A stretch of 45,039 nt of DNA. Origin: Lachnospiraceae bacterium (GTDB lineage Bacteria > Bacillota > Clostridia > Lachnospirales > Lachnospiraceae). Location of the stretch: positions 1 to 45,039 of the forward strand of contig JAFSHK010000026.1 in NCBI GenBank assembly GCA_017440375.1, read 5' to 3'. Positions within the stretch are counted from its first letter, which is position 1, and each line of letters opens with the position of its first letter. Under the pieces are notes generated by a model, which saw only the letters and a list, made by a program, of their open reading frames with translations, was not told the DNA's origin and searched no databases. The position numbers and the translations under genes were made by a program. Shown here in pieces: positions 22,897 to 28,112 of the stretch.

Positions 22897-22940
22897 AAAT
22901 TAGTAACAATAGAAGTTTGCAAAGAAAAGGGGAAATTGCA

Positions 22941-23363
22941 ATGAGCGAGTGGGAAAAGAGAGTATTGAGTGTTATGATGGTGTGTCTGCTTTGTATGAGT
23001 GTAGCTGCGTGTGGAATCAAACAGCAGGACCCGATGAAAAAAATCAAAGATTTGGAATTCTCGGTGATTGCAGAAGATAAATTGCCGGAGGAGCTTTTGA
23101 CAGCCATTGAGGAGAAAAAGGGAAGTCCTTTTAAAGTAACCTTTCAGGATCAGGGCTTTCTCTATATTTGTATCGGATATGGACAGCAGGAAACGGGTGG
23201 TTACAGCATAGCAGTCAATGACTTGTATGAAACGGCCAATGCAATCTATGTGGATACAAACCTGATTGGACCGGGACCGGAAGAAAAGGGGAATTTGTCA
23301 CCAAGCTATCCGTATGTAGTAATTAAGACGGAATATATTGAAAAGTCGGTAGTGTTTGATTAA
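22941..23363 (+). CDS. Lipoprotein with PrcB-like C-terminal domain
   Basis: This 140-aa predicted lipoprotein has the signal segment SVMMVCLLCMSVAACG with the lipobox Cys. After a short linker comes a small beta-rich domain with GGYSIAVNDLYETANAIYVDTNLIGP and SYPYVVIKT. That GGY-x-I...IYVxT.LxGP.....SYPYVxI.. pattern is the PrcB_C domain, named after the spirochaete protease-complex inhibitor PrcB. Many Firmicutes homologues have no known role. The frame opens 24 bases earlier through a TTG, but ATG 22941 follows AAAGGGGAAA and is preferred. The gene lies between the acyltransferase and pyrC. Confidence 0.78.
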   Translation: MSEWEKRVLSVMMVCLLCMSVAACGIKQQDPMKKIKDLEFSVIAEDKLPEELLTAIEEKKGSPFKVTFQDQGFLYICIGYGQQETGGYSIAVNDLYETANAIYVDTNLIGPGPEEKGNLSPSYPYVVIKTEYIEKSVVFD

Positions 23364-24801: not shown

Positions 24802-25578
24802 ATGGCACAGAAGAAGAAAGTAACAGCGACCGTTGTGTCACAAAAAGAGATTGCAGAACAGATTTATGATTTGTGGTTGGAAACGGATTTGGCGAAGGAT
24901 GCCAAACCGGGACAGTTTGTAGCGGTTTATCCGCAGGATGCCAGCACATTACTTCCGCGACCAATCAGCATTTGCGAAGCGGATAAGGAGAAGGGCAGAC
25001 TTCGTCTGGTCTATCGAATTGCCGGAAAAGGAACGAAAGAATTCTCATCCTATCAGTCGGGTGACAAGGTTTCTGTTCTGGGGGTACTTGGAAATGGATT
25101 TCCATTGGAGAAAGCAGAAGGAAAGAAAGTTTTTCTGATGGGTGGCGGTATCGGTATTCCACCGATGTTACAGTTAGCCAAAGAGTTAAATGCGCAGAAA
25201 CAGATTGTGGTAGGATATCGTAATCAGGATTTGTTTTTACGGGAAGATTTGAGTCGCAATGGTGAAGTTTATGTTGCAACCGAAGACGGCAGTGTAGGCA
25301 GCAAAGGAAATGTTATGGATGCCATTTTCGAAAACGACTTGCAGGCAGATGTGATTATGGCTTGTGGACCAATGCCGATGCTTCGTGCGATTAAGAAATA
25401 TGCAGAGGAAAATGGAATCGAAGCTTACATTTCTCTGGAAGAAAGAATGGCATGTGGTGTGGGAGCCTGTCTTGGCTGTGTATGCAAAACAAAAGAAGTG
25501 GATCATCATTCCCATGTAAACAATGCTCGTATCTGTACGGATGGTCCGGTATTTGAAGCAAAAGAGGTGGATATCTAA
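24802..25578 (+). CDS. pyrK: Dihydroorotate dehydrogenase B, electron-transfer subunit
   Basis: PyrK carries FAD and a [2Fe-2S] cluster and passes electrons from the PyrDB catalytic subunit to NAD+. The 258-aa protein has the ferredoxin-reductase-like FAD region LLPRPISICEAD, the NAD-binding LMGGGIGIPPMLQLAKEL and the cluster cysteines 218, 223, 226 and 245 in MACGVGACLGCVC...RICTDG. The frame is open from ATG 24790, but that ATG is followed by GGAGGAGAAC, which is the ribosome binding site for ATG 24802. The stop codon shares one base with the pyrD start, so the two subunits are translationally coupled. Confidence 0.95.
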   Translation: MAQKKKVTATVVSQKEIAEQIYDLWLETDLAKDAKPGQFVAVYPQDASTLLPRPISICEADKEKGRLRLVYRIAGKGTKEFSSYQSGDKVSVLGVLGNGFPLEKAEGKKVFLMGGGIGIPPMLQLAKELNAQKQIVVGYRNQDLFLREDLSRNGEVYVATEDGSVGSKGNVMDAIFENDLQADVIMACGPMPMLRAIKKYAEENGIEAYISLEERMACGVGACLGCVCKTKEVDHHSHVNNARICTDGPVFEAKEVDI

Positions 25579-26483
25579 TGAATACAAAAGTAACAATCGC
25601 AGGTGTAACATTCAAAAACCCCGTTATGACAGCATCAGGAACTTTTGGTTCTGGTATGGAATATGGTGAATTTGTTGATTTGAATAAACTGGGTGCAGTC
25701 GTAGCCAAAGGTGTTGCAAATGTGCCGTGGCCGGGAAATCAGACTCCTCGCGTGGCAGAAGTTTACGGAGGTATGCTAAATGCTATCGGCTTACAGAATC
25801 CGGGTATCGATGTGTTTGCAAAGAGAGACATTCCATTCCTGAAGAAGTACGATACAAAAATCATCGTTAATGTATGTGGCAAAACAGTGGAAGATTACTT
25901 GGAGGTAGTGGAGAGACTTGGTGATGAGCCGGTGGATATGTTAGAGATTAACGTATCTTGTCCGAATGTAAAAGAAGGAGCCATTGCTTTTGGGCAGAAA
26001 GCAGATTGTCTGTATGACATTACATCCCAGATTAAGAAAAAGGCAAAACAGCCGATTATCATGAAACTCAGTCCGAACGTAACAGATATTACAGAGATGG
26101 CAAAAGCTGCAGAGGCAGCAGGCGCCGATGCGCTTTCCATGATTAACACACTTACCGGAATGAAGATTGATATTAACCGAAGAAAATTTGTGCTTGCAAA
26201 CAAAACCGGGGGGATGTCCGGACCAGCGATTAAACCGGTGGCAGTACGTATGGTATATCAAGCAGCACAGGCAGTTAAAATTCCGATTATCGGTATGGGC
26301 GGTATTGCCACAGCCGATGATGCGATTGAATTTTTACTAGCAGGTGCAACAGCAGTAGCAGTTGGTGCCATGAACTTCGTCAATCCATACGCAACCGTAG
26401 AGGTGGTAGAGGGTATCGAAGCTTATATGAAGAAATACGGAGTGGAAGATATCAATGAATTGATTGGAGCAGTAGAAGCTTAG
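25578..26483 (+). CDS. pyrD: Dihydroorotate dehydrogenase B (NAD+), catalytic subunit
   Basis: This class 1B enzyme oxidises dihydroorotate to orotate using FMN and works as a heterotetramer with PyrK. The 301-aa barrel begins with the typical VTIAGVTFKNPVMTASGTFGSG; the catalytic base Cys128 lies in LEINVSCPNVKEG; the FMN phosphate site is IPIIGMGGIATADDAIEFLLAGA. Its start overlaps the pyrK stop by one base. It is the last gene of the pyr group; a terminator-like hairpin begins 20 bases after its stop and reaches into the next gene's start region. Confidence 0.96.
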   Translation: MNTKVTIAGVTFKNPVMTASGTFGSGMEYGEFVDLNKLGAVVAKGVANVPWPGNQTPRVAEVYGGMLNAIGLQNPGIDVFAKRDIPFLKKYDTKIIVNVCGKTVEDYLEVVERLGDEPVDMLEINVSCPNVKEGAIAFGQKADCLYDITSQIKKKAKQPIIMKLSPNVTDITEMAKAAEAAGADALSMINTLTGMKIDINRRKFVLANKTGGMSGPAIKPVAVRMVYQAAQAVKIPIIGMGGIATADDAIEFLLAGATAVAVGAMNFVNPYATVEVVEGIEAYMKKYGVEDINELIGAVEA

Positions 26484-26497
26484 GAAATATTTAATAT

Positions 26498-26526
26498 GAA
26501 TATAATACCTCCACGCGGCATACAAT
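26498..26526 (+). promoter_or_regulatory. Candidate SigmaE promoter for the SipL-like gene
   Basis: GAATATA (26498-26504), a 14-base spacer and CATACAAT (26519-26526). Both elements and the spacing match the SigmaE consensus. The predicted start is near 26533, inside the hairpin that spans 26504-26552 and downstream of its left arm. Confidence 0.7.
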
Positions 26527-26555
26527 ACAGTAAGTATACGCATGGAGGTATTTTT
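26504..26555 (+). terminator. Hairpin with T-run carrying the SipL-like ribosome binding site in its 3' arm
   Basis: AATACCTCCA (26504-26513) pairs perfectly with TGGAGGTATT (26543-26552), with additional inner pairing (GCG/CGC and ATAC/GTAT), and is followed by TTT and the GTG start codon. The GGAGGT ribosome binding site lies in the 3' arm. In transcripts reading through from pyrD this would act as a terminator or hide the site; transcripts from the SigmaE promoter lack the left arm. Confidence 0.65.
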
Positions 26556-28112
26556 GTGGAATTAGTTAAGAAAAAAATACATATGGATCGTATTGCGAAC
26601 AAAGCCGGAACCCAGATGGTGTTGGAAGAGGATGTAAATATATCGGATAACAGACCGGATGCAAGTCATCTGATTGGTGCCAAAGGGAATGTGGTTTTAG
26701 AAGAAGTCCGTGTCGGTGAGGATCGTGTTAATTTAAAAGGTAAGCTACAAGTACAGATGCTATATCTGACAGAAGAGGAAGGCTTGTGTGCCAGCATGAA
26801 CGCGTCGATTCCGTTTGAGGAAAAAATCAATATGGAAGGGGTAAAAAACGGGGACACCGTAATTCCGGCGTGGACAGTAGAAGATTTGAGCGTTGGTTTA
26901 ATAAACTCCAGAAAATTGAGTGTACAGGCGATGATTTCTTTTGTTCTGGAATTGGAAGAAAGAATGGAGCAGGAAGCTGCGGTTGATATTTACCATGAAG
27001 AACCCGTAGAATATCGGAAGCAAACCTATCCGGTTTTACAAGTGGCTGTCAATATTAAAGATATTTTCCGAATTAAGGAAGAAATGGAATTGCCGAGTCA
27101 TTTGCCGAATGCTTTTCAGCTTGTATGGGACAGCATTACGCTAAATAATGTGGAATTCAAAGCATTGGATGAAAAAATTGTCTTACAGGGTGAAATGAAA
27201 GCTTTTTTCTTATATGAAGGCGAGGGGGATAATGATAAAACGCTTTGGTATGAGAATACAGTACCTTTTAACGGAATGATAGAATGTCACGGTTGTCGGG
27301 AAAATATGATACCGGATATTCGGTATACGGTTTCTCAGTGTAATGTGGAAATCCGACAAGACTTAGATGGGGAAGAAAGAGTATTCTGCATTGAAAATGT
27401 ATTGGATTTAGACATTCGACTTTATGAAGAGGAAAATTTGGAAGTGCTGTCAGATATTTATGGTGTAGCCAAAGAAATTGAAGCTGTGACAACAGAAGTA
27501 CCGTTAAAGCGTTTGCTTTTTCATAACAGTGGAAAATGTAAAGTGGCAGATCATGCGAAAATTCAGAATACAGAAATGCATATGTATCAGCTAATTCATA
27601 GTGAAGGTGAGGTTCAGATAGCGGAGCAGACGATTGTGGAAAATGGTATTTCAGTGACAGGAACTTTGTGCGTAACTACACTTTATCTTTGTACAAACGG
27701 AAAGAATACATTGTATGCCACAAAATCCACCCTGCCATTTCAACAAGTAATTGAGGTACCGGGAATTAGTGAAAACGGTATTTATCGTATTCAGTGGAAT
27801 CTGGAACAATTGGTTGTTACGATGTTAGATAGTGATGAATTGGATATTAAGGCGGTATTAAGTTATCAAGTAATGGCTTTTACCTCGGATGAAGCGGACT
27901 TAATTACAGACATTAAAGTCAGCGATTTGGATATGAATAAAATCAGCGAATTGCCGGGAATGGTGATTTATATTGCGAGAGCGGGTGATACCCTTTGGGA
28001 CATCGGCAAGCGATACTATGTGCCGATTGCACAACTGAAAGCAGTGAATGAACTAGCAGGCGAAGAAATAAAAATGGGTGATAAAATTCTTGTAATTAAA
28101 GGAATGAGTTAA
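26556..28112 (+). CDS. sipL: SipL-like spore coat morphogenesis protein (DUF3794 repeats plus LysM)
   Basis: SipL in C. difficile binds SpoIVA through its LysM domain and anchors the coat to the forespore surface. This 518-aa protein has that architecture: DUF3794 (SPOCS) modules, visible from the repeated pattern KIVLQGEMKAFFLYEGE / NLKGKLQVQMLYLTEEEG / SVTGTLCVTTLYLCTNG followed by TLPFQ/ASIPFEE strands, and a single C-terminal LysM (VIYIARAGDTLWDIGKRYYV, residues about 470-515). The frame is open from 26496, but the real start is GTG 26556, placed 7 bases after GGAGGT and downstream of a SigmaE-like promoter. It is cytoplasmic in the mother cell, with no signal peptide. A terminator follows, so it is probably a single-gene unit. 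Confidence 0.87.
   Translation: MELVKKKIHMDRIANKAGTQMVLEEDVNISDNRPDASHLIGAKGNVVLEEVRVGEDRVNLKGKLQVQMLYLTEEEGLCASMNASIPFEEKINMEGVKNGDTVIPAWTVEDLSVGLINSRKLSVQAMISFVLELEERMEQEAAVDIYHEEPVEYRKQTYPVLQVAVNIKDIFRIKEEMELPSHLPNAFQLVWDSITLNNVEFKALDEKIVLQGEMKAFFLYEGEGDNDKTLWYENTVPFNGMIECHGCRENMIPDIRYTVSQCNVEIRQDLDGEERVFCIENVLDLDIRLYEEENLEVLSDIYGVAKEIEAVTTEVPLKRLLFHNSGKCKVADHAKIQNTEMHMYQLIHSEGEVQIAEQTIVENGISVTGTLCVTTLYLCTNGKNTLYATKSTLPFQQVIEVPGISENGIYRIQWNLEQLVVTMLDSDELDIKAVLSYQVMAFTSDEADLITDIKVSDLDMNKISELPGMVIYIARAGDTLWDIGKRYYVPIAQLKAVNELAGEEIKMGDKILVIKGMS

Follow-up and report, generated by a model that had tools for sequence, protein, structure and literature searches.

The stretch of DNA analysed here (the window; 45,039 nucleotides from a Lachnospiraceae bacterium) places sipL, a gene for spore coat morphogenesis, on the same strand as pyrD and directly behind it, with 72 nt between the pyrD stop and the sipL GTG. 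How might a sporulation gene in this position be held off in growth, when pyrD is the presumed source of read-through into it, and still be turned on in sporulation? We consider it very probable that the sipL leader is self-insulating, terminating or locking read-through RNA while the RNA made from its own SigmaE promoter escapes.

Overlapping elements in the sipL leader

The downstream ORF matches Pfam SipL (PF12673; E 4.4e-53) and LysM (PF01476; E 1.8e-8), both over the cut-off, and these SipL/SPOCS and LysM domains bear out the SipL-like gene call of a preliminary description of the window. No viral relatives of the SipL protein were found. The window's own genome (G000) is a draft, 68% complete, whose nearest named relatives are uncultured Lachnospiraceae; it contains a SigmaE gene. 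Ahead of the pyr genes lies a lipoprotein-like ORF with a PrcB_C domain (22917–23363), and lipoprotein ORFs of similar look, judged by eye, occur near sipL elsewhere (for example, L168, L180 and L183).

Table 1. Features of the pyrD–sipL region, in window coordinates
Feature	Position	Strand	Description and basis
pyrD (dihydroorotate dehydrogenase)	25578–26483	+	Last upstream pyr gene; Pfam DHO_dh, NCBIfam PRK07259
SigmaE-type -35, GAATATA	26498–26504	+	Direct reading; CATAT-like motif at equal spacing in most relatives
Hairpin left arm	26504–26517	+	AATACCTCCA, mismatch, GCG; within promoter spacer; sequence, fold and relatives
SigmaE-type -10, CATACAAT	26519–26526	+	In hairpin loop, N14 after GAATATA
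Expected transcript start	26532–26534	+	Placed from promoter spacing; within conserved AAG/AAC stretch
Hairpin right arm	26539–26552	+	CGC, mismatch, TGGAGGTATT; sequence, fold and relatives
Shine-Dalgarno, GGAGG	26544–26548	+	Inside right arm; direct reading
T-run, TTTTT	26551–26555	+	Joins right arm to start codon; resembles the U-tract of a terminator, first two bases also stem-paired
sipL	26556–28112	+	SPOCS repeats and LysM; spore coat morphogenesis; GTG start conserved in relatives

Direct reading places the sipL start codon at 26556–26558 and identifies positions 26504–26513 and 26543–26552 as perfect 10-bp reverse complements. This is the stem of the preliminary description, but the full stem is longer than was noted there: beyond a C-A mismatch (26514/26542), folding pairs GCG (26515–26517) with CGC (26539–26541). 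A further upper helix between the -10 element and the start region is possible (ATAC, 26520–26523, with GTAT, 26534–26537), and even with it about 10 nt of the loop are unpaired. The ribosome binding site was indeed found in the right arm just before the GTG, and the SigmaE-like promoter, GAATATA-N14-CATACAAT, lies across the left arm and loop as had been proposed (Table 1). An energy calculation on the two sides gives -20.8 kcal/mol for the arm duplex, where shuffled sequences average -7.5 kcal/mol (p 0.002). Because this energy beats that of shuffles, and because the pairing is conserved amid sequence turnover (below), the pairing is not a product of chance. A search of Rfam with positions 26000–27000 returned no family above its gathering score, the only hit being mir-1175 at 18 bits against 51, and a known RNA family was rejected on this basis as the identity of the hairpin.

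The aligned leaders combine an ATA-type -35 with a CATA-type -10 at fixed spacing, as expected of SigmaE promoters. A study of Clostridioides difficile reports a mapped SigmaE promoter for sipL in that organism and names the ATA motif in the SigmaE consensus (PMC3789822). From its sequence, the promoter in the window would be used by SigmaE, with transcription starting near 26533.

RNAs that do and do not carry the left arm are predicted to fold differently. In the window leader, the predicted probability that the Shine-Dalgarno sequence is unpaired rises from 0.00 in read-through RNA to 0.65 in RNA started at the promoter. Among 65 folded leaders that keep the arm, the predicted value in read-through RNA is below 0.1 in 64, the sole leader not closed being L098 (0.46), so the closed start envisaged in the preliminary description holds in predicted folding. 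Its complement, an open ribosome binding site in SigmaE RNA, fared less well: it is predicted for the window, but the median over the 65 leaders is only 0.50, with 33 above 0.5, so that the site is about half open. These folding models suggest that translation of read-through RNA would be blocked.

Compensatory change in the arms and the direction of the upstream gene

The leader stretch was present in 35 of 61 genomes searched (the window's own and 60 others). Scanning named genomes yielded 73 loci, 72 of them usable; L109, which is 34% identical and has a different leader, was left out of every leader count. With the window this makes 73 leaders, all of which keep the GTG start and 72 of which have CATA as the -10, the exception being L081 (AATA). 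At L081 the SipL protein groups with one clade and the leader reads like that of another group, a pattern that recombination between leader and gene, or a mixed draft, would produce.

Arm pairing was compared as the energy of the 20 nt preceding the -10 against the right arm, in 72 of the 73 leaders (60 distinct), L070 having no left side. N was treated as A, here and in the energy calculations for ribosome-site opening, arm re-pairing, control genes, enolase, the GerA-family gene and the set of 40 distant sipL loci. The preliminary description had held that its switch would be refuted if the arms were neither conserved nor covarying in relatives. This condition did not arise: strong pairing was kept in 55 of the 60 distinct leaders, with duplexes of -15.2 to -29.9 kcal/mol, and absent in five, and 48 of the 60 reach a shuffle p <= 0.01. 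When the arms of the 53 distinct arm-keeping leaders were re-paired at random, none of 5000 totals was as low as the real one. In an alignment of 47 leaders, 88.7% of cells are paired, against 28–51% when the alignment is slid, and 33 cells carry a double change, against a shuffled mean of 12.8 (0/500 shuffles). The number of pairs with a double change in these leaders is not above that in shuffles (253/500), nor are pair types (31/500). A second group of 13 distinct leaders has its pairing shifted by one base with promoter spacing unchanged; here 90.0% of cells are paired against 32–60% in slid alignments, and neither double-change pairs (415/500) nor pair types (375/500) exceed shuffles. At one stem pair A-U, G-C, C-G, G-U and U-G all occur, and G-U pairs are frequent (UG in 14 of 47 leaders at one pair). 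No conserved part was seen in the aligned leaders beyond the arms and promoter elements.

The direction of the upstream neighbour was read from ORFs for 70 sipL leaders, L050, L061 and L070 being excluded as they have no upstream DNA. The neighbour is co-directional in 61 (in 44 it is pyrD, at most 300 nt away, and in 17 another ORF) and divergent in nine. The left arm is lost at none of the 61 co-directional loci and at five of the nine divergent ones. Since these five leaders form one clade (support 100/97), the five losses are a single event. Upstream of them a LytTR response regulator gene (Pfam, L071 copy) points away from sipL. All five retain the promoter and Shine-Dalgarno sequence; none has a T-run of five or more, as opposed to 60 of 67 leaders that keep the arm, although the gap is still T-rich (TTTTCTT). 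This pattern of loss is consistent with release from read-through. Four divergent loci keep the hairpin (L046, L111, L099 and L110). Weaker arms are found at three loci where a small, co-directional helix-turn-helix gene precedes sipL (L093, p 0.048; L097, 0.016; L098, 0.032).

Proposed termination and translational locking, and their precedents

In the mechanism that we favour, polymerase arriving from pyrD or another upstream gene would copy both arms, so that read-through RNA would fold into a GC-rich hairpin followed by U residues, and most transcription would end right before the sipL start codon. In any RNA that passed this terminator the Shine-Dalgarno sequence would be paired. In the mother cell, SigmaE polymerase would bind a promoter that has the left arm as its spacer and start within the loop. 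Because such an RNA has the right arm only, it would contain no terminator, and its ribosome site would be usable. Some 50 bp would in this way end the pyr unit, hold sipL off in growth and turn it on in sporulation.

The main rivals to self-insulation divide over which half of this scheme matters. The hairpin might chiefly be an intrinsic terminator of the upstream unit, its overlap with sipL an economy of space and the translational lock a by-product; we see this as a real possibility, though not the probable one. T-runs of five or more occur in 58 of 70 sipL leaders and in none of 117 control genes taken from the same loci, and the T fraction between the Shine-Dalgarno sequence and the start is at least 0.7 in 63 of the 70 and again in no control; strong leader pairing distinguishes the two sets as well (65/70 in sipL leaders, 4/117 in controls, one of the latter four being the antisense strand of a sipL hairpin). 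Where the arm is lost, hairpin and T-run of five are missing together, throughout the sipL clade concerned and at three of the four such loci of a GerA-family gene described below. A scan for terminators with loops of 3–8 nt, moreover, lists nothing else resembling a terminator between pyrD and sipL. A terminator could, however, sit anywhere in the gap behind pyrD, and in arm-keeping leaders the pairing takes in the Shine-Dalgarno sequence; in seven of the 67 arm-keeping leaders the T-run is also shorter than five. The opposite view, a pure lock on translation of read-through RNA as in phage T4 gene e, with no real termination and a T-run that serves to keep the start unstructured, strikes us as rather unlikely. 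It would account for the predicted closure of nearly all read-through leaders, and the architecture is close to that of the T4 genes e, soc, 49 and I-TevI as two reports describe them (PMC3014915, PMC2988022). What it leaves aside is a T-run far beyond the range of control genes, which recurs in GerA-type (22/27) and enolase (28/30) leaders. Because the T-run is so exceptional, the hairpin is probably both terminator and closed start, and termination would occur at the T-run.

Two further readings were weighed. The inverted repeat could be a DNA operator for a dimeric regulator, spanning promoter spacer and start region: it is palindromic and its position suits a repressor. The letters of the arms turn over while pairing stays, G-U pairs are common, one group pairs a single base out of register, and other families and genes realise the layout with unrelated sequences. 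On arm turnover, G-U pairs and register shift we rejected the operator, which we regard as scarcely credible. A ligand- or protein-regulated leader on the main sipL mRNA, of the attenuator or riboswitch kind, would sit well with the same layout at enolase, a gene needed in growth, but the leader matches no Rfam family, has no conserved part outside arms and promoter elements, and has its loop already taken by the promoter; we think such regulation very improbable.

The self-insulation proposed for the sipL leader is known in kind, a variant of the mechanism described for T4 gene e and proposed for Bacillus subtilis sigG. The T4 reports describe upstream transcripts of e, soc, 49 and I-TevI in which a hairpin sequesters the Shine-Dalgarno sequence and, for e and I-TevI, a late promoter so near that its RNA starts beyond the 5' strand and can be translated (PMC3014915, PMC2988022). 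The sipL leader resembles gene e in the predicted sequestration of its Shine-Dalgarno sequence in upstream-derived RNA, in the position of its own promoter, which overlaps the 5' strand and loop of the hairpin, and in the expected escape of that promoter's RNA. It differs in being a cellular sporulation gene with a SigmaE-type promoter rather than a phage gene timed by a late sigma factor, in its terminator-like tail (no U-tract terminator within the same element is mentioned in the T4 passages on e, soc, 49 and I-TevI) and in the loss of its arm in a clade with a divergent neighbour. For sigG, likewise a sporulation gene downstream of an active unit, a large leader hairpin has been proposed to act as a translational lock on read-through (PMC5942855). 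Gene, sigma factor and lineage differ from those of sipL, for which there is in addition comparative evidence, a T-run and the same layout at other genes.

Like intrinsic (Rho-independent) terminators, the sipL hairpin has a GC-rich stem with a T-run directly behind it. Unlike them, the sipL hairpin has a ribosome binding site as its 3' half and a promoter as its loop; the loop is long, and the hairpin is missing from the list of our terminator scan, which covered loops of 3–8 nt only. In fold-back inhibition of the IS10 transposase, too, folding covers the start site in read-through RNA and leaves it free in transcripts begun at the element's own promoter; IS10 differs from sipL in being a mobile element without a sporulation sigma factor. 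The open-licence literature on sipL hairpins and on read-through into sporulation genes yielded no report of the sipL element. Within the reach of these searches, three points are new: terminator, promoter and ribosome site overlap in one element, this overlap recurs, and it has disappeared from a clade whose upstream neighbour is divergent.

The layout at other loci and other genes

Outside the genus, 24 of 68 sipL loci within the order pass p <= 0.01 (17/28 and 7/40 in two sets), with arm letters quite different from those of the window. L166, in the 28-locus set, was missed by the energy test since its arms are further apart; they are seen in the fold. Outside the order none of 25 loci passes, and two further loci of the order in that set of 27 also fail. 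The layout is therefore not universal at sipL. Start codons of distant loci were picked by script, and some (for example, L189) are possibly wrong. A veg-like gene lies upstream at several loci of the order outside the genus (the one tested matches Pfam VEG), where two have pyrD, and at many of the 25 loci outside the order (four tested, all Pfam VEG).

Pattern scans for the same nested arrangement led to enolase (first scan, 77 genomes) and to a GerA-family germination gene (second scan). Reversed control patterns match nearly as often in many genomes, so matches are mostly chance, and among the matches listed only those recurring across genomes were followed. Both cases came out of a search for the layout, which biases their discovery, but conservation played no part in selecting them.

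The GerA-family gene (Pfam; 30 loci, L271–L300) has 27 scorable leaders, of which 22 reach p <= 0.01 and one more 0.017. CATACTA, which we take to be a SigmaG-type -10, is present in 17 of the 27. A dUTPase gene (Pfam, one copy) lies upstream on the same strand at 20 of these loci, up to 483 nt away; the hairpin is kept at 19 of them and lost at one (L284), and it is kept at the three loci behind another co-directional ORF. Loss thus affects one of 23 co-directional and three of four divergent loci, the latter three having just three consecutive T behind the Shine-Dalgarno sequence. The fourth divergent locus, L296, keeps the hairpin. Together with the divergent sipL loci that do so, it leads us to reject the rule that every divergent neighbour frees the arm.

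Among the matches listed, enolase has one pattern match per genome in 74 of 77 genomes. Its leaders (30 loci, L134–L163, for example L134, L136 and L138; all from the same genus) are strongly paired in 23 cases, with CATACT in 23 and the Shine-Dalgarno sequence closed in 27 by predicted folding. Enolase must be made in growth. Its layout does not fit a pure sporulation lock and is unexplained by the reading we favour.

On balance we lean towards a recurrent class of self-insulating leaders in the order, comprising sipL (SigmaE) and the GerA-family gene (SigmaG-type), to which enolase and a small Cys-rich gene may also belong. Sporulation promoters would be nested in a hairpin that serves as terminator of an upstream housekeeping unit and as ribosome-site lock, with selection keeping the pairing behind a co-directional neighbour and decay setting in once the neighbour turns away. 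With such a short element doing three jobs, a sporulation gene could follow housekeeping genes at a distance of tens of bases and still not leak. If general, the arrangement would give developmental genes in little-studied gut bacteria a signature by which to search for them, let the cost of read-through be gauged from natural cases and supply a compact insulated promoter design for laboratory use.

Some minor observations concern single loci. The enolase of the window's own genome (G000:C13:23735-24304) is of a different type, 63% identical to the enolase of the genus. At L264 (near base 880) and L267 (near base 834), a small Cys-rich, coat-like ORF is preceded by CATAGGATATGG in a hairpin over the Shine-Dalgarno sequence; the L264 copy has no Pfam match. 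At L270 (near base 846), a gene whose product begins MAIGYLTIQ and has a weak carboxypeptidase-regulatory-like domain is preceded by a hairpin containing CATATAAT and by a T-run before its ATG.
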